From Treponema sp. (lineage in GTDB: Bacteria; Spirochaetota; Spirochaetia; Treponematales; Breznakiellaceae): 54,971 nt of DNA. Location: the NCBI GenBank assembly GCA_009781915.1, contig WQUW01000002.1, positions 1-54,971 on the forward strand. Direction: 5' to 3'. Made by a program: the position numbers and the translations under genes. Numbering within the stretch: position 1 is the first letter of the stretch; each line of letters opens with the position of its first letter. Positions 6,556 through 27,209 of the stretch are shown in pieces. The notes beneath the pieces were generated by a model. The model searched no databases. It was not told where the DNA came from and worked only from the letters and a program-made list of their open reading frames with translations.

Positions 6556-8109
6556 ATGAGAAGAACGATATTGATCCTGATACTCGTGCTGGGAGCGGCT
6601 TTTGGCGCTTTTGGTCAGGCGGCTGGTTCCATGGACTTGGTGGTGGTCATGGACACTTCTGTCAACATGAGCGGACACCACTGGGAAACCAGCGACTACC
6701 TTATTGGGCCATTCCTAAGGGAATTTTTGCGTATCGGCGATACGTTTCACCTTATTTCCTTTGCGGAAACCCCAAGGATGGAGATTTCCCGCCATGTAGC
6801 AAGCGCAGGGGATTTGGAGATAATCATTGCGCGCCTGTTGTTAATGAGTCCCTTGGGCGGCCAAGCGAATATCGGCCCTGCGCTGAATTTTGCGGAAATG
6901 TATGTCGCCGCTTTGCCCGGAAACCGGCCCCGCAGGATCATCCTTATTTCCGATGGAAGCGCTCCCGGCACGGATAGTCTGGTCGCCGCCGCTTCCGGGC
7001 GTTTAAGCAATGTGGGCACAGACCTGCAGTTTATCAGAGTGCCGGTTATTGGAGCCGGGCCCCCGTCAGGCCGCCCCCTCGTTGGCGTTCAGCCGCCGGG
7101 TGTCGCGCCGCCTGTTGCCGTGCCGCCCCCGGTTGTTGCCCAGCCGCCTGTTGCCGTGCCGCCTGTTACCGCACCGCCCCCCGGTGTTCAACCGCCAGTC
7201 GCTGCCCAGCCGCCGGGTGTTCAGCCTCCTGTTACCGCGCCGCCCCCCGGTATCCAGCCGCCGGACGTTCAGCCGCCTGCTGTCGCGCCGCCTCCCGGTG
7301 TTCAACCGCCAGTCGTTGCCCAGCCGCCGGGTGTTCAGCCCCCTGTTACCGCACCGCCTCCCGGTGTTCAGCCGCCAGTCGGTGTCCAGCCACCGGGCAT
7401 CCAGCCGCCTGTTACTCAGCCTCCGGCGGCGGCGGGTGATGGCTTGTTTATCGGCGGTATTCCCCTGCCCCTCATAATTGCCCTTGGTATTCTGCTGTTG
7501 GGTATCTTGGGGCTCATTGCTTTCCTTGCGTTAAGGAATTTGCACAGTTCCCCGAACCGGACGGTTGCCCGGGCGATAAGGCCGTCGCCAGCGCAGGGAA
7601 GGGACGCAAGCTCCGTGGACAGGTTCGCCGAAGCCCGAAGCGCCCGGACGACAGGTTCGCCGCTACACTCGCCGCCCCCGGCGCGGAGGGTTGGCCCCAA
7701 GGACAAGATATACACGCCCCCGGAAGAAGACACAGGGCCGATGATGCTTAACCTTTTTGTGGAAGATCAGAATACCGCCATTGGCAGAAGGAATATCCAC
7801 ACTGCCAAGGCGGGCCAAAGCTTTTCCATTGGCGGCGGCAAATCGGACTTCCTTGTTTTTCTGGTTCCCATTCCGTCCAATATCGCCGACATTCAGGTTG
7901 GCAACAGGAACTGTACGTTCATCCCCCGAAAGCCGCAGTACTTTCCGGACATAGGTTCCCAATCCGTGCCCGACTGCATAGGCAAAACCATACGGGTAAT
8001 TTCCGATAAGAACTATGAGCTTTTCCTCAGGGTTGAAAGGTACGAGGATCCTCTAAAAGCCCTGAACAAGCTGTTGAATTCGATCTCGGTTCCGGGGGAA
8101 GTTAAGTAG
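6556..8109 (+). CDS. von Willebrand factor A membrane protein with proline-rich repeat linker
   Basis: A 517-residue protein. It has a signal peptide (MRRTILILILVLGAAFGAFG), then a VWA domain. Its metal site is partly degenerate (MDTSVNMSG, with Asn in place of the second Ser of DxSxS), and a later strand is ILISDGS. A linker of about 120 residues of PPGVQPPV-type repeats follows, then a membrane segment (IPLPLIIALGILLLGILGLI) and a basic C-terminal region with an FHA-like stretch (RRNIHTAKAGQSFSIGG). The VWA domain and linker would lie outside the membrane and the C-terminus in the cytoplasm, which suggests envelope adhesion or scaffolding. A very strong GGAGGAG ribosome binding site precedes the ATG. 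It lies 25 bp after greA. Confidence 0.85.
   Translation: MRRTILILILVLGAAFGAFGQAAGSMDLVVVMDTSVNMSGHHWETSDYLIGPFLREFLRIGDTFHLISFAETPRMEISRHVASAGDLEIIIARLLLMSPLGGQANIGPALNFAEMYVAALPGNRPRRIILISDGSAPGTDSLVAAASGRLSNVGTDLQFIRVPVIGAGPPSGRPLVGVQPPGVAPPVAVPPPVVAQPPVAVPPVTAPPPGVQPPVAAQPPGVQPPVTAPPPGIQPPDVQPPAVAPPPGVQPPVVAQPPGVQPPVTAPPPGVQPPVGVQPPGIQPPVTQPPAAAGDGLFIGGIPLPLIIALGILLLGILGLIAFLALRNLHSSPNRTVARAIRPSPAQGRDASSVDRFAEARSARTTGSPLHSPPPARRVGPKDKIYTPPEEDTGPMMLNLFVEDQNTAIGRRNIHTAKAGQSFSIGGGKSDFLVFLVPIPSNIADIQVGNRNCTFIPRKPQYFPDIGSQSVPDCIGKTIRVISDKNYELFLRVERYEDPLKALNKLLNSISVPGEVK
7081..7430 (+). repeat. proline-codon minisatellite inside the VWA gene
   Basis: Degenerate tandem repeats of a CAGCCGCCGGGTGTT-like unit encode PPGVQPPV, PPVTAPPP and similar blocks. 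Several 30-60 bp stretches recur almost exactly (for example GGTGTTCAACCGCCAGTCG at two places), so copy number could change by slippage without shifting frame. Confidence 0.85.
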
Positions 8110-21398: not shown

Positions 21399-21773
21399 TT
21401 ACGGACGATTCCAAATCCTCACCCTTTCGTAACTGCATTTTAGGAAATGAGGGTCATGGGTAACTATTTCCGCATCGTATACTATTGCTGTTGCCCCAAT
21501 AATTGCATCAGGCAACTTAAGCTTTGAAAGCCGGCTTAATGCTATGGTTTCATTTTCTATTGCGGCGTTAATTGGCGCTACAGGAACAAGCCGGAGAAAC
21601 TCATTGATCGTATGTTCCTCATCTGGCGTAATATCAGGATGTTTCAATAATTCAAGTTTAACTATGACACTGACAAAGCATTCGTGCTGCGAAAACAATA
21701 AAGGCAAATCAACTACAGAGCTTCCCTGTTTGAGAAAATCAATAATCACATTGGTATCAAGCAGGAGCCTCAT
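21399..21773 (-). CDS. vapC: VapC-type PIN-domain toxin 1
   Basis: A 124-residue PIN-domain ribonuclease toxin. The acidic metal-binding residues are in LLLDTNVIIDFL (first Asp), the Glu of VKLELL, and LPDAIIGATA (third Asp), with a further Asp in EIVTHDPHFL. VapC toxins cleave tRNA or rRNA and arrest growth until bound by their antitoxin. The start is ATG (MRLLLDTN), one base after the antitoxin stop (TAG-C-ATG), so the pair is co-translated. A second, divergent pair is at 53787-54402, and a scar with the same antitoxin/toxin junction lies at 27186. Confidence 0.9.
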   Translation of the reverse strand: MRLLLDTNVIIDFLKQGSSVVDLPLLFSQHECFVSVIVKLELLKHPDITPDEEHTINEFLRLVPVAPINAAIENETIALSRLSKLKLPDAIIGATAIVYDAEIVTHDPHFLKCSYERVRIWNRP

Positions 21774-21774
21774 G

Positions 21775-22050
21775 CTAATTGCCCCATTCTTCCCTGACCT
21801 TGCGCTGATACGCAACACCGTCAAGGTTGCCGAAGGCATTTTTACCAAGACTACCCTGTAAGCTTTGAAGTTTTGCCCTTACTTCCCCTGCGTCCAGTTT
21901 GTTGGCACAATTCGCCAGAGTGTATTCAAGGTCTTTATTTTCCAAAACAGCAGTGATGGTAAGTATGGCTTTCCCTACCGGTACTTCAGGGGGCACATCA
22001 ACAAAAAACCTGCGCCCGGGCGGTATCTGGACAGTTTGTTCTATCGTCAT
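21775..22050 (-). CDS. vapB: VapB-type antitoxin 1
   Basis: A 91-residue protein starting MTIEQTVQIPPGRRFFVDVP, a beta-rich N-terminal dimerisation/DNA-binding region with the PPEVPVGKAILT motif, then a C-terminal toxin-binding tail ending DGVAYQRKVREEW. The same start and tail motifs occur in antitoxin 2 (53787). The antitoxin should neutralise the PIN toxin and repress the operon. The -10 box TATACT lies 6 nt before the ATG with no ribosome binding site, so the mRNA is predicted to be leaderless. Confidence 0.88.
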   Translation of the reverse strand: MTIEQTVQIPPGRRFFVDVPPEVPVGKAILTITAVLENKDLEYTLANCANKLDAGEVRAKLQSLQGSLGKNAFGNLDGVAYQRKVREEWGN

Positions 22051-22133: not shown

Positions 22134-22170
22134 CAAAAAAGCCCGGCGCAATCGCACCGGGCTTTTTTTA
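22134..22170 (-). terminator. porin copy 1 terminator (bidirectional)
   Basis: A stem of AGCCCGGTGC / GCGCCGGGCT (one G-T pair) with a 4-nt loop is flanked by A and T runs on both sides, so it can stop transcription from either strand. The sequence from the porin stop through this terminator to TTGTTTTACGGG is shared with porin copy 2. Confidence 0.9.
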
Positions 22171-22183
22171 CACGTAGCCTAAA

Positions 22184-23428
22184 CTAGAAAGACACCCGCA
22201 CCAGTGCGTATACACCGATGTTTGTGCCATGCCCAGTAAATCTAGTGGGGCCCCAAGAAGCAAGTGCATAATTTTCATTGCCAAGGTCAAAGTTGAGAAT
22301 AGCGCCAAGCTCCACAAAGGAAGCGGCGGTAACTCTGAACTGGACAGCAGGCCGAATCTGGATAAAGCTGTCTTCATCTTCGAAAGTGGCCCCATTCCTG
22401 ACGCTCCAGTGGTGCATCTGCTGGAAACCAGTCCACAGACCACCCATTACATAGTGTACGTCAAGGCGGGGAACTACAATGTCGCTAAGAGCGTATGCGC
22501 CAGAAAGCCATACCCAGATATGGTTGGAATAACCGTCTGCGTCCCTAAAGTCGCTATTCCCCAGCATACCGAAACTAAAGCCCAAGCGCAGATCCAAGTT
22601 CTCAACCAGCCCGGTATGACCAACTGTGGCATAGAAGCGCATATCACCCCAATCGCTAAACTCATCAAGGTTCATAAACAATGCGGTAAAAGCGGCGTGC
22701 AAGCCGGGCATCCCAAGGTAAGAAAAGCTAAGGTAGCCCGCAGAAGGGGTCGCATGGAACGGGTTTACATCGGTAGGGTCAGTCGGATCGGTGACTACCC
22801 ACAGTTGTTTGTTGCCAAAGCCGGAAGTACCCACATTGCTGGCTGTCCGCAAACCAGCGGTTACCCTAAGAAGGTCGGGCATAATGTACGAAAGCTGAAA
22901 GGTTCCCAGCATTTGGGTAGTATTGCCTGTGCCATCCAGCGTCATTGCGCCAGTGCCGGCGCTGAAAGCGCCAAAGCCAAGAACAAGTCCGTCCATGGGC
23001 CGCACAATCGTCTGAACGCCAATGCCGCCGCCGACTTCTTGGTGGTGCATTCTGTCCAGCGGGGCAAAGAACCCGTACTCAACACGTCCGCCCTGTACGG
23101 TGATCATGTTGTCCATAAAGGACATCCAGCCGAAGCCCCAGTCAAATGCGGCGGGGAGATTTCCCAAGCCAGCAGTGTGGCCCTGGGCCCTGATACGGAA
23201 TGTTAAGCCAGCGGTATTGTCGGCGTTGGCAAACCGCGCGTCCAACTGCGTCCTAAAAGGCGTGTTGGCAGCATCCCAGTTAATCGGCGCCACACGTACG
23301 TCATCATCGCCTTCAAGGAAGAACATACCAAAGCCTCCGCTTGCAAGGCCGTTGAATGTCCAGCCCTGAGCGAATGCCCCCCCGCCCGCAAGGGCGAGAG
23401 CCACGAAAACAAGCAACATTTTCTTCAT
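22184..23428 (-). CDS. outer membrane beta-barrel porin, expressed copy (porin 1)
   Basis: A 414-residue outer membrane protein. The signal peptide is MKKMLLVFVALALAGGGAFA. The mature part has alternating-hydrophobic strands and ends in VGVYALVRVSF-type residues with a terminal Phe, the signature of a BAM-inserted barrel. It shares long near-identical blocks with porin 2 (25718-27115), such as APINWDAANTPFRTQLDARF and GLVENLDLRLGFS, separated by divergent segments probably exposed as surface loops. A strong promoter and an AGGGGG ribosome binding site precede it. The DNA match to porin 2 starts about 5 bp before the ATG and runs past the terminator. Confidence 0.9.
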   Translation of the reverse strand: MKKMLLVFVALALAGGGAFAQGWTFNGLASGGFGMFFLEGDDDVRVAPINWDAANTPFRTQLDARFANADNTAGLTFRIRAQGHTAGLGNLPAAFDWGFGWMSFMDNMITVQGGRVEYGFFAPLDRMHHQEVGGGIGVQTIVRPMDGLVLGFGAFSAGTGAMTLDGTGNTTQMLGTFQLSYIMPDLLRVTAGLRTASNVGTSGFGNKQLWVVTDPTDPTDVNPFHATPSAGYLSFSYLGMPGLHAAFTALFMNLDEFSDWGDMRFYATVGHTGLVENLDLRLGFSFGMLGNSDFRDADGYSNHIWVWLSGAYALSDIVVPRLDVHYVMGGLWTGFQQMHHWSVRNGATFEDEDSFIQIRPAVQFRVTAASFVELGAILNFDLGNENYALASWGPTRFTGHGTNIGVYALVRVSF

Positions 23429-23512
23429 TTAAGAACCCCCTACACAATTTACATAACCCCCGGGAGAAATGGCCCACAGCCACCTGTAACCCCCCTCTTG
23501 GGTCTAGCCGCC

Positions 23513-23542
23513 AGTATACCATGTTGCGTATACCTCTGTCAA
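23513..23542 (-). promoter_or_regulatory. strong promoter of porin 1
   Basis: Minus strand: -35 TTGACA (23537-23542), 18-nt spacer, -10 TATACT (23513-23518). GGTATAC occurs twice, 14 nt apart, across the spacer and -10, and could be an operator. The leader is about 78 nt and ends with AGGGGG, 8 nt before the ATG. No such promoter exists upstream of porin 2. Confidence 0.85.
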
Positions 23543-23756
23543 GTTTTTTTTATCGTCCCCATCGACAAAATATTGAAAAATGACGTAATTTTTTCAAAAA
23601 AAGAGTTGGATATAAACCGCAGGTTCCATAGTAGTGAACTTGTAGTTTTATAGCTGCTTCCACTGGAAAAGCCCTGCCCTAACTGTACACCTAACCTCGA
23701 AGCAAAACGCATCTTTGCGCAGTATATAGCCTGTGGCAGCTTGCCGTCGAGTAAAC

Positions 23757-23785
23757 TTGACGCAGGGGCGGCTGGCGGCTATATT
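23757..23785 (+). promoter_or_regulatory. promoter of the PD-(D/E)XK-like gene
   Basis: -35 TTGACG (23757-23762), 17-nt spacer, -10 TATATT (23780-23785). The stretch 23543-23756 between this and the porin 1 promoter holds no gene; it has an A/T-rich part near 23570-23605. Confidence 0.75.
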
Positions 23786-23805
23786 CAACACACAGGAGCG
23801 CAAAC

Positions 23806-24384
23806 ATGGCAGAGACACTGGCCGAGGCTTTGGCTCGCCCTCAGGCAACCCCGCAGGAGTTATGGGCGATACTACAGGAAAACGCCGCGCAGCAGAAAGA
23901 AACAGACCGGCTATTAAAAGAAACCAGAAAGCAGATCGACAGGAACAATAAAATCGTAGGAGAGCTTGGCAATAGCTTTGGCGAAATTGTCGAGCATCTG
24001 GTCGCACCGGGAATACAGGAGCGCTTTGCCGACATGGGCCTGCATTTTGACAACCTGTCTCCCAACGTACGGATGATGGAAAACAAAAAGACGATAGCGG
24101 AGATAGACCTGCTGCTTGGAAACAGGGAAATTCTTATGGCAGTAGAGGTAAAGTCCAAACCGCACATAAATGACATTGAAGTACACGAGAACCGGCTTGA
24201 ACGTCTGCGAGAGTGGTACGACCAGCGCGGCGACCACCGCAAGCTCTACGGCACTCTTGCCGGGGCGGTGTTCGGCGAGGCGGAAAAGGCCGCCGCCATC
24301 AATGCCGGGTTTTACGTCATAATCCAGACCGGGGACACCATGAAGATAGAAACCCCCAAAGGCTTTACCCCACGGGAATGGTAG
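23806..24384 (+). CDS. PD-(D/E)XK nuclease-like protein (DUF3782-like)
   Basis: A 192-residue protein. Residues 1-60 form a helical, probably coiled region rich in Gln, Glu and Lys (ENAAQQKETDRLLKETRKQI). The C-terminal domain has the restriction-endonuclease-like core: Asp101 in AEIDLLLG and Glu114-x-Lys116 in AVEVKSKP. This is the D...ExK pattern of the PD-(D/E)XK superfamily. Proteins of this layout are common in spirochetes and cyanobacteria and lack a proven function. AGGAG lies 7 nt before the ATG. It is 79 bp upstream of the recombinase gene and could be co-transcribed, so a role in the local DNA rearrangement is conceivable. Confidence 0.75.
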   Translation: MAETLAEALARPQATPQELWAILQENAAQQKETDRLLKETRKQIDRNNKIVGELGNSFGEIVEHLVAPGIQERFADMGLHFDNLSPNVRMMENKKTIAEIDLLLGNREILMAVEVKSKPHINDIEVHENRLERLREWYDQRGDHRKLYGTLAGAVFGEAEKAAAINAGFYVIIQTGDTMKIETPKGFTPREW

Positions 24385-24426
24385 CGTCCCCGGCATAGAC
24401 CCCATAAAAATGCCTCCGACCATGCG

Positions 24427-24443
24427 GCGTGTGTTAGATTTGT
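24427..24443. repeat. direct repeat upstream of the recombinase gene
   Basis: GCGTGTGTTAGATTTGT; a near-identical GCGTGTGTTAATTTGT occurs at 25645-25660 past the recombinase stop. A third partial copy, GTGTGTTAATTT, follows at once (24442-24453). These could be binding or crossover sites of the recombinase. Confidence 0.55.
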
Positions 24444-24463
24444 GTGTTAATTTTTCATTCATT

Positions 24464-25609
24464 ATGAGACAAGAATACAGTATAGTGGCGCGCCGGGGCA
24501 AAAAGGGAAACGTGTATTACGTCAGGTTTTTTCGTGATAGCAAAATGATACCTTCCCAATGGAGCGCAAGGACTCAGGATTTCCGGGAGGCGGAAGTGTT
24601 TGCCAAAACAAACAAGGATCGGCTTCTTGCCAGGTATTTTCACCGCAAAGAAGGCAAAACCCTGTACAGGGTTTTGAAACATTACTATTCAAAAAATAGT
24701 TCCTTCCTTATGGTGGACGCGGCAAGGGGCAGAAAACTAAGCGAATCTTCAAGGCAGATTTTGCATGGGTTTGTTGTCAACACGTTTGTTCCGTTTTTGC
24801 AAAGCCGCGGCGTAAAGGAATTTGACGAAATAACCCCGCCGCTAGTGTGCCGTTTCCAGAACTACCTGCTTATGGAAAAAAAGCTGCTTCCGCAATCCAT
24901 TAACCGGCAAATCGGCGGAATTAAGGCCATATTCAGCCATATGTTTATGACGGGGGTTATCCAGCGGAATATCATGAAAGACATCACTCCGCTTAGGCCC
25001 ACAAAAACCAGAATACGGGGCTGTTTTTCTTTGGAAGACCTGCCGGGGATATTCAAGGCCCCTTGGGAGGACAGAGGATCGTTTCTGCTCTGCGCTCTTA
25101 TTTATTCCGCCGGGCTTAGAAACAGCGAAATTCAAAACCTTGCGGCAAACGACATTATCACAAAAGATGGCGTTCATTTCCTTAACATATCCAAAAGTAA
25201 AACGGACAGCGGGGTGCGGATTATTCCCATTCATCCCAAACTTAGGGAAGCCCTGAACGAATGGGTTTTGGAAAACGGGCTTTCCGGCGGGGATATTCTT
25301 TTCGCAAAAAGCGCCGGGGGGCGAATATACAAGGACGCGAAAAACGCCCATATTTTTATGGCTTCCAGGTTGGGCAAGGATGCCAGCGAACTGGAAAAAA
25401 GCAACATCACGTTTTACTCCGGAAGGCATTTTTACAAAACCATGCTGAACTTTCACAATCTGGGCGATATTGAAGAACTGTTCATGGGACACAAAGTGAA
25501 CAGAAAGGTAAGCGAGCGGTACAACCACAAAGACAAGCGCGGCGAAAAAGCCCTTCTTGCGGAGGCCAGAAAAGCCATCGAAATAATTGACGCGACATTA
25601 TTCCGGTAG
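24464..25609 (+). CDS. tyrosine recombinase (phage integrase family)
   Basis: A 381-residue site-specific recombinase. Residues ~75-185 form a SAM-like core-binding domain (VNTFVPFLQSRGVKEFDEI; INRQIGGIKAIFSHMF). Catalytic residues are Arg219 (YSAGLRNSE), Arg321 in YSGRH, His343 (MGHK) and the nucleophile Tyr353 (SERYNH). The first position of the usual HxxR box is Tyr318 rather than His. The first ~60 residues form an Arm-type DNA-binding region (KGNVYYVRFFRDSK). The start at ATG 24464 is preferred; a frame from 24410 exists. No ribosome binding site is clear. It lies between two inverted porin genes. Confidence 0.9.
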   Translation: MRQEYSIVARRGKKGNVYYVRFFRDSKMIPSQWSARTQDFREAEVFAKTNKDRLLARYFHRKEGKTLYRVLKHYYSKNSSFLMVDAARGRKLSESSRQILHGFVVNTFVPFLQSRGVKEFDEITPPLVCRFQNYLLMEKKLLPQSINRQIGGIKAIFSHMFMTGVIQRNIMKDITPLRPTKTRIRGCFSLEDLPGIFKAPWEDRGSFLLCALIYSAGLRNSEIQNLAANDIITKDGVHFLNISKSKTDSGVRIIPIHPKLREALNEWVLENGLSGGDILFAKSAGGRIYKDAKNAHIFMASRLGKDASELEKSNITFYSGRHFYKTMLNFHNLGDIEELFMGHKVNRKVSERYNHKDKRGEKALLAEARKAIEIIDATLFR

Positions 25610-25644
25610 CGGGAAAGCGGGCGGCGGGGAAGCTGTGTGTTTTT

Positions 25645-25660
25645 GCGTGTGTTAATTTGT
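25645..25660. repeat. direct repeat downstream of the recombinase gene
   Basis: GCGTGTGTTAATTTGT, the partner of 24427-24443. It lies 57 bp upstream of the porin 2 ATG. Confidence 0.55.
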
Positions 25661-25717
25661 CTGCGCGCCATGTAAGTCTTTACGGCACAACAGGTTAAAA
25701 CGCAAGCGCTTTCCTAA

Positions 25718-27115
25718 ATGAAGAAGATTTTGCTTGTTTTCGTGGCTCTCGCCCTTGCGGGCGGGGGGGCATTCGCTCAGGGCTGGACGTTCAACGGCCT
25801 TGCAAGCGGAGGCTTTGGCGCTTTTTTCTTTGAAAGACAAGATGATGGGCCAGAAGCTGGACCAGGCGACAGACTGAGCAGATATGGGCTTGTCGCTCCG
25901 ATAAACTGGGATGCTGCCAACACGCCTTTTAGGACGCAGTTGGACGCGCGGTTTGCCAACGCCGACAATACCGCCGGTTTGACCTTCCGGGTTAGGGCTC
26001 AGGGCGCTGCTACTGGCGCTACCGATCTTCCCGCATGGTTTGACTGGGGCTTCGGCTGGATGTCCTTTATGGACAACATGGTTACCGTGCAGGGCGGACG
26101 TGTTGAATACGGGTTCTTTGCCCCGCTGGACAGAATGTTCCACCAGGAAGTTGGCGGCGGCATTGGCGTACAGACGATTGTGCGCCCCATGGACGGCCTT
26201 GTCCTTGGACTTGGCGCCTTCAGCGCTGGATTTGGGGGAGCTGATCTCCCAACAAATAATGGTATCTGGAATGACGCAGACAGAATGATGCTGATGGATG
26301 GCAATAACCAAATGCTCGGTACCATCCAAGTGTCGTACACCATGCCAGATCTTCTTAGGGTAACCGCTGGTGCGCGGACAGAAAGCAATGTTGGTACTTC
26401 CGGCTTTGGCGACAGCCGTATGGCCACGGGCATAACTGGTCTTACTCTGTCTCCTACTCGTTTCGCGGCTCCCTCTGCTGCTTACATCAGCGCCGCATTC
26501 CTTGGAATGCCGGATCTGCACGCCGCTTTTACCGCACGGTTCATGAATATTCATCAATTCGGTGATATGGGCGATATACGCTTGTACCTTACCGCCGGAC
26601 ACACCGGTCTTGTTGAAAACCTGGATCTTCGGCTCGGCTTTAGCCTTGGGTTGACCATGGAAGACAACATTTACGTTCGTAATTTTGGGACAGTTGCTGC
26701 TGCCGGAATTGCTCCCGGCGAACGCGAGCTTATCAACAATGATCCCTCCCCCCATGTTTGGGTGTGGCTTTCCGCCGCCTATGCGCTCTCTGATGTAGTC
26801 GTTCCCCGTTTGGACGTTCACTATGTCATGGGCGGACAATGGAATGGCTGGCAGCGGATGCACCATTGGTCACCTCGGGACGGAGCTACCTTCGATAGCG
26901 ATGATATGTTCATCCAGATTCGGCCTGCAGTACAGTTCAGAATTACCGCCGCTACCTTTGTGGAACTTGGTGGTATTTTCAACATTGACTTGAGTGATGC
27001 CGTGCTCACCGAAGTTGTGTATACTTACCGTGAGCCTAATGATGGTTCTTGGGGCCGCAGTGGCGTTCATGGTCTGAACATCGGCGCATACGCACTGGTG
27101 CGGGTGTCTTTCTAG
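25718..27115 (+). CDS. outer membrane beta-barrel porin, putatively silent copy (porin 2)
   Basis: A 465-residue paralogue of porin 1 with the same signal peptide (MKKILLVFVALALAGGGAFA), the same barrel blocks and an identical ALVRVSF end. It is 51 residues longer, mainly through different or extra loop segments (after residue ~40, around 175-190, 215-235, 300-325 and near the C-terminus). No promoter or ribosome binding site is visible upstream: the sequence before ATG is AAGCGCTTTCCTAA. Homology to porin 1 begins at TTCCTAAATG. Read-through from the recombinase gene is the only obvious transcription source. The frame is intact, so it looks like a stored variant rather than a decaying pseudogene. 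Confidence 0.88.
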   Translation: MKKILLVFVALALAGGGAFAQGWTFNGLASGGFGAFFFERQDDGPEAGPGDRLSRYGLVAPINWDAANTPFRTQLDARFANADNTAGLTFRVRAQGAATGATDLPAWFDWGFGWMSFMDNMVTVQGGRVEYGFFAPLDRMFHQEVGGGIGVQTIVRPMDGLVLGLGAFSAGFGGADLPTNNGIWNDADRMMLMDGNNQMLGTIQVSYTMPDLLRVTAGARTESNVGTSGFGDSRMATGITGLTLSPTRFAAPSAAYISAAFLGMPDLHAAFTARFMNIHQFGDMGDIRLYLTAGHTGLVENLDLRLGFSLGLTMEDNIYVRNFGTVAAAGIAPGERELINNDPSPHVWVWLSAAYALSDVVVPRLDVHYVMGGQWNGWQRMHHWSPRDGATFDSDDMFIQIRPAVQFRITAATFVELGGIFNIDLSDAVLTEVVYTYREPNDGSWGRSGVHGLNIGAYALVRVSF

Positions 27116-27130
27116 TTTAGGCTACGTGTA

Positions 27131-27168
27131 AGAAAAAGCCCGGTGCAATGTGCGCCGGGTTTTTTTTG
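27131..27168 (+). terminator. porin 2 terminator
   Basis: AGCCCGGTGC ... GCGCCGGGTT hairpin followed by a run of eight T. It is homologous to the porin 1 terminator, so the duplicated unit includes it. Confidence 0.85.
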
Positions 27169-27185: not shown

Positions 27186-27209
27186 GGGGCAATTAGCATG
27201 AGGCTCCTG
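27186..27209 (+). pseudogene. scar of a vapB/vapC junction
   Basis: 24 bp identical to the junction of vapBC1: the last antitoxin codons, TAG stop, one base, and the first four toxin codons (AATTAGCATGAGGCTCCTG is the core). Beyond it the sequence diverges. It shows that a vapBC1-like module once lay downstream of porin 2, or that the duplication ended inside vapC. Confidence 0.75.

Follow-up and report, generated by a model that had tools for sequence, protein, structure and literature searches.

The window analysed here, a stretch of 54,971 nucleotides, is one whole contig (G000:C2) of a Treponema sp. genome assembly that comprises 2.82 Mb in 180 contigs. In this contig, two porin genes are arranged head to head and point apart, porin 1 on the minus strand and porin 2 on the plus strand, with a DUF3782-like gene and a tyrosine recombinase gene (yrec) between them. 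The original prediction had described this layout, and both coordinates and family matches agree with it; the PD-(D/E)XK nature of the first inner gene is only possible, its match lying below the Pfam cut-off. The features of the locus are as follows.

22136-22169, minus strand: terminator-like hairpin of porin 1 (repeat D1), absent from the list of the consensus terminator scan
22184-23428, minus strand: porin 1, 414 aa, in the expression position, with promoter and ribosome binding site upstream
23416-23440, minus strand: candidate core recombination site 1, with spacer TAAATGA over the start codon, placed by the identity boundary common to the relatives
23436-23441, minus strand: ribosome binding site AGGGGG of porin 1, from the sequence
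23462-23499, minus strand: hairpin leader of the expression site, from alignment with the leaders of six other porins
23513-23542, minus strand: promoter of porin 1, TTGACA-18-TATACT, with TG before the -10 (11/12 matches)
23757-23785, plus strand: divergent promoter-like TTGACG-17-TATATT (10/12) before the DUF3782-like/yrec pair, presumed to serve it
23806-24384, plus strand: DUF3782-like gene, possible PD-(D/E)XK protein
24410-25609, plus strand: tyrosine recombinase (Yrec) of the Phage_integrase family, probable true start at 24464 (MRQEYS)
24430-24452, plus strand: upstream TGTGTTA repeat pair, candidate arm-type sites, from repeat comparison
25636-25658, plus strand: downstream TGTGTTA-like pair, the first of the two 82 nt upstream of the porin 2 ATG
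25675-25685, plus strand: motif AGTCTTTACGG, kept in silent sites at about -38, from site comparison
25706-25730, plus strand: candidate core recombination site 2 (silent site), from site comparison
25718-27115, plus strand: porin 2, 465 aa, in the silent position, from sequence and promoter scan
27133-27166, plus strand: terminator-like hairpin of porin 2, a homologue of the porin 1 hairpin and likewise absent from the consensus scan list

It had also been claimed that porin 1 has a promoter and a ribosome binding site and that porin 2 has neither. The promoter scan and the sequence bore this out, with the region's best promoter in front of porin 1, and with neither a promoter-like site nor a Shine-Dalgarno sequence upstream of porin 2. 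One porin stands behind promoter, hairpin and ribosome binding site and the other behind yrec, and the core over the start codon is common to both. A nuclease-like gene, DUF3782-like or of another possible PD-(D/E)XK type, adjoins the porins in most loci (L060, 12198-13028; L062, 12811-13482; L080, 4846-5634; L110, 2300-3151), and a relative of the DUF3782-like gene adjoins both porins of the related genome G035.

Yrec matched PF00589 (Phage_integrase) with 50.6 bits against a cut-off of 27.1. R237, K264, R339, H361 and Y371, which we take to be the catalytic R, K, HxxR, H and Y residues, were invariant in 20 sequences, and the first H of HxxR was Y336 in all 20. To judge from comparison with relatives and from the position of the repeats, yrec probably starts at 24464. 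The predicted structure (pLDDT 83.5) has N-terminal strands (residues 23-30 and 33-42, with a short third strand near 51-52) and a helix (58-80) before the catalytic domains; it aligned along full-length lambda Int (1z1b) and also matched Tn1549 Int. This model fits an N-terminal domain that would bind arm-type sites. The porin-linked Yrecs formed one group (support 91/97) among other Treponema integrases, many of which adjoin phage- or element-like genes. In this wider family (35-44% identity to the window Yrec; L085-L105), many members lie within ~1 kb of a contig end, perhaps because assemblies break at mobile elements. We set these relatives aside as integrases of other elements, as they had neither an adjoining porin nor TGTGTTA pairs.

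The porins had no significant family match in Pfam or NCBIfam. Structure prediction for porin 2 from six sequences produced a beta-barrel model (pLDDT 58), which weakly suggests a beta barrel for this homologue of porin 1. The two porins share 74% amino acid identity along their full length, long stretches of the genes are 71-90% complementary, and the inverted repeat runs beyond the stop codons through the terminators. A 24-nt perfect inverted copy of the vapC start lies beyond porin 2 (21762-21785 and 27186-27209), and this copy, together with the repeat through the terminators, suggests an inverted duplication. It is probably a remnant of that event, after which vapBC was lost on the porin 2 side.

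The original prediction held that the first ~100 bp of the porins are nearly identical and that this homology begins just before the ATG. The near-identity stands (87/90 in the first 90 nt), and so does the boundary, which lies just upstream of TTCNTAAATG; the 5' identity itself is unexceptional, as the first 66 nt agree at 64/66 positions and 7 of 363 later 66-nt windows are equal or better. Statistics on the first 66 nt within the window were not decisive for this reason and were set aside. Because the porins are alike throughout, the inverted repeat in the window alone is weak evidence; the 5' boundary is significant because its exact position recurs in related genomes in which the porin bodies share only 32-54% identity. 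We inverted the segment in silico between the TAAATGA spacers (2,291 bp). Both reading frames remained whole (465 and 414 aa), promoter, leader and ribosome binding site moved from porin 1 to porin 2, and the arm-like repeats came to lie before porin 1, in agreement with the ~2.3 kb inversion that had been proposed to move promoter and leader onto porin 2.

We searched 200 genomes of the family, one genome per species, for Yrec and for the site pattern. A close Yrec (59-64% identity) occurred in only three other genomes, all Treponema sp. MAGs: G002 (WRMC01000011), G003 (WRKT01000025) and G035 (WQZG01000001), whose isolate codes presumably denote termite samples. In all four porin-linked genomes, the window included, the gene directly after yrec, in the same orientation, is a porin that lacks a ribosome binding site; the yrec stop and the porin start are 108 nt apart in the window and 89 and 92 nt apart in G002 and G035. 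The site pattern TCYTAMATGAAGAARRYDYT...TTNTT was present in only 6 of the 200 genomes, always at porin starts and with zero control matches; there are two copies each in the window genome and G035, three in G003 and one in G002. Scans of viral contigs with Yrec and with the site pattern gave no match.

The arrangement around the module differs among these genomes. The two sites of G035 lie head to head as in the window, 26.5 kb apart, and the distant porin has TTGACA-17-TATATT, a hairpin leader and AGGAGG. In G003, porin A (behind yrec) and porin B lie tail to tail, another contig ends with porin E (TTGACA-17-TATAAT and AGGAGG), and a contig end truncates a fourth porin. The yrec of G002 has an in-frame TGA (L082, about 10620) and only one site was found in that assembly, so the switch may be locked there; the Yrec reading frame is intact in the window, in G003 (short form) and in G035. 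The module occupies a different chromosomal neighbourhood in each genome. Inspection of L059, L060, L062 and the right flank of the window placed it beside a different central-metabolism gene per genome (ackA, pfk, glpK or ptsI), which may be chance.

The starts of the porins have evolved in concert. Amino acid identity of the porin bodies is 32% for G003 A and B, 54% for G003 A and E, and 43% for the G035 pair, whereas the signal-peptide DNA of porins within G003 and within G035 matches at 62-65 of 66 positions, and no later window of these pairs reaches the similarity of the start. Where both sequences have a degenerate codon for one and the same amino acid, signal-peptide codons were identical in 97/100 cases within switch loci versus 310/557 between genomes. 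A further porin of the window genome, its third, has no site and agreed with porins 1 and 2 in 6/12 and 8/13 codons. The spacer is identical within each genome, with TACATGA instead of TAAATGA in both copies of G035. In every pair the left end of identity falls within a few bases of the spacer, to the left of which the upstream context (ribosome binding site or silent left arm) begins. Diverged bodies with nearly identical starts indicate, from these comparisons, that exchange at the porin start has continued within each lineage, G003 and G035 among them. The homogenised tract measures ~60-70 nt and extends ~60 nt rightwards from the presumed cut. A 7-bp exchange alone would not produce such a tract, which suggests additional gene conversion.

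We compared the sites with one another. The start codon is central in the yrec-side palindromes of the relatives, which pair at 10/10 positions in G002 (GAGCTTTCTT-AAATG-AAGAAAGCTC) and at 8/10 in G003A and G035, whereas the core palindrome of the window is degenerate (4/10 at the silent site, 5/10 at the expressed site). The silent sites of the window, G002 and G035 retain the left arm GCTTTCYT. The same three genomes have TGTGTTA-like repeat pairs on either side of yrec, and the first downstream copy lies at -82 from the ATG despite the varying yrec-porin distance; another motif, TTAC, is found at -38/-39. Such pairs were found in 0/16 other Yrec relatives. The Yrec of G003 lacks ~73 N-terminal residues and its locus has no TGTGTTA repeats; the pairs are present in all three members with a full Yrec N-terminal domain and absent where the domain is lost. 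The pairs are candidate arm-type direct repeats beside the core.

The leader of the expression site is also found outside the switch. Porin leaders, including those of porins without a switch, share a hairpin just upstream of the ribosome binding site with compensatory changes (window, 23462-23499, minus strand; L080, about 7000-7030, minus strand; L109; L110), and alignment of the porin 1 leader with six others showed two-sided changes in 7/14 pairs. The window porin leader had no match in Rfam, and the hairpin is a possible regulatory RNA element of Treponema porins. G066 and G115 each have one porin that has a promoter and shares this leader and start, and both lack this Yrec, from which the target seems to predate the switch. 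The expression porin lies near hisC/hisD-like genes, named by inspection, in both G066 and G035.

We propose that the locus is a two-state porin switch in which a domesticated, integrase-type Yrec inverts 2.29 kb and thereby exchanges the porin behind the expression leader, and on the sequence evidence we assign this reading a probability of roughly 0.78. In the window and in G035, inverted sites with an identical crossover region flank a segment whose flip would swap the expressed porin. The idea of a switch with its own recombinase draws support from the adjacency of Yrec and the silent porin, from the pairing of expression and silent sites, from the concerted starts, from the spacer over the start codon, from the arm-like repeats at a fixed distance and from the single group of porin-linked Yrecs; we infer from these that the inversion takes place in cells. 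Yrec would cut and exchange strands within TAAATGA at both cores, the DNA between them (26.5 kb in G035) would invert, and the expression leader would pass to the other porin, leaving the first porin silent beside yrec. The ancestor of the enzyme was presumably an integrase, with an N-terminal domain that would bind the TGTGTTA arms, which would mark the silent side, and the silent site would be attP-like and stay with yrec. The signal-peptide sequence lies to the right of both sites, so the product has the form of the substrate and no directionality factor would be needed; the reaction would be reversible without an excisionase. Counting against the switch are the poor core palindrome of the window (4-5/10 versus 8-10 in the yrec-side sites of relatives), the homogenised tract beyond the cut, the in-frame TGA in G002, the loss of the N-terminal domain in G003 and the low confidence (pLDDT 58) of the porin beta-barrel model.

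The same tract, at ~70 nt longer than a Yrec crossover region, would be expected if RecA-dependent homologous recombination or gene conversion between porin starts did the switching and Yrec were a neighbour or a mobile-element remnant. The homology of the porin 3' ends and terminators and the broken yrec of G002 point the same way, but this account leaves unexplained why Yrec and the silent porin stay adjacent at different chromosomal places, why TGTGTTA is fixed at -82 and why identity ends at the same spacer in each genome, and the Yrec reading frame is intact elsewhere; we regard it as improbable. Yrec could instead be the integrase of a mobile element that uses the porin start as attachment site, with the silent porin captured or displaced and the element moving without any switching. 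The phage- or element-like neighbours and contig-end positions of most of its nearest other relatives, the expression-type start in G066 and G115 without this Yrec, and the changing neighbourhood of the module agree with this, but no other element genes are conserved around the module and the sites of the window and G035 are inverted, which argues for inversion rather than excision and makes this explanation very improbable. A static inverted duplication, with recent paralogues, no switching and porin 2 an unexpressed copy, would account for the inversely duplicated gene, terminator and 24-nt vapC piece and for the 7/363 later windows in the window, but is just as improbable given the old bodies (32-54% amino acid identity) and nearly identical starts in G003 and G035.

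Within the proposed switch, we suggest more tentatively, at rather less than even odds, that Yrec is a domesticated integrase with a composite attP-like site (arms plus start-codon core) beside its gene and with any porin start in the genome as partner. If so, the module could be placed anywhere in the chromosome and porin bodies could be swapped over long distances: 26.5 kb of housekeeping DNA would be flipped in G035, four porins would be shuffled in G003, and the loss of the arm domain in G003 would be a conversion to a simple core-only recombinase. An integrase with a gene start as its target could become a regulator, its sites making the reaction symmetrical. If the switch is real, uncultured termite-gut treponemes would gain heritable variation of outer-membrane permeability or phage receptors. 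Our literature search turned up no spirochete porin switch operated by a recombinase.

Integrases of the lambda and Tn916/Tn1549 types resemble the Treponema Yrec in the catalytic fold and in the predicted N-terminal strands and helix. Arm-type sites lie beside int in lambda- and Tn916-type integrases, and the arm-like repeats adjoin yrec likewise. Unlike in those systems, no mobile element is seen at the Treponema locus, the sites are inverted and the predicted outcome is inversion. Going by its title, the work of Moses et al. from 1995 (doi 10.1111/j.1365-2958.1995.mmi_17010183.x; cited in PMC5903667) reportedly found that phase and antigenic variation of Dichelobacter nodosus Omp1 is controlled by multiple site-specific inversion. 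Both systems would vary an outer-membrane protein by inversion, and we claim only this functional resemblance; D. nodosus belongs to a different phylum, and the Treponema locus has its recombinase inside and arm-like repeats.

The Mycoplasma agalactiae vpma/Xer1 and M. bovis vsp systems, as outlined in PMC2268961, use a locus-encoded tyrosine recombinase that inverts a silent reading frame to a single active promoter, and the Treponema switch would be alike in both respects. In that account, the vpma sites lie upstream of the start codon, at -1 to -72, and the products are lipoproteins, whereas the Treponema core spans the start codon, with identity through the signal peptide, and the products are porins. 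PMC2268961 also describes Mycoplasma pulmonis vsa/HvsR, in which silent 3' genes become linked to the promoter, the ribosome binding site and a 5' portion of the coding region; in that system the expression site retains 714 nt of coding sequence, whereas in Treponema only the start region is common to the porins.
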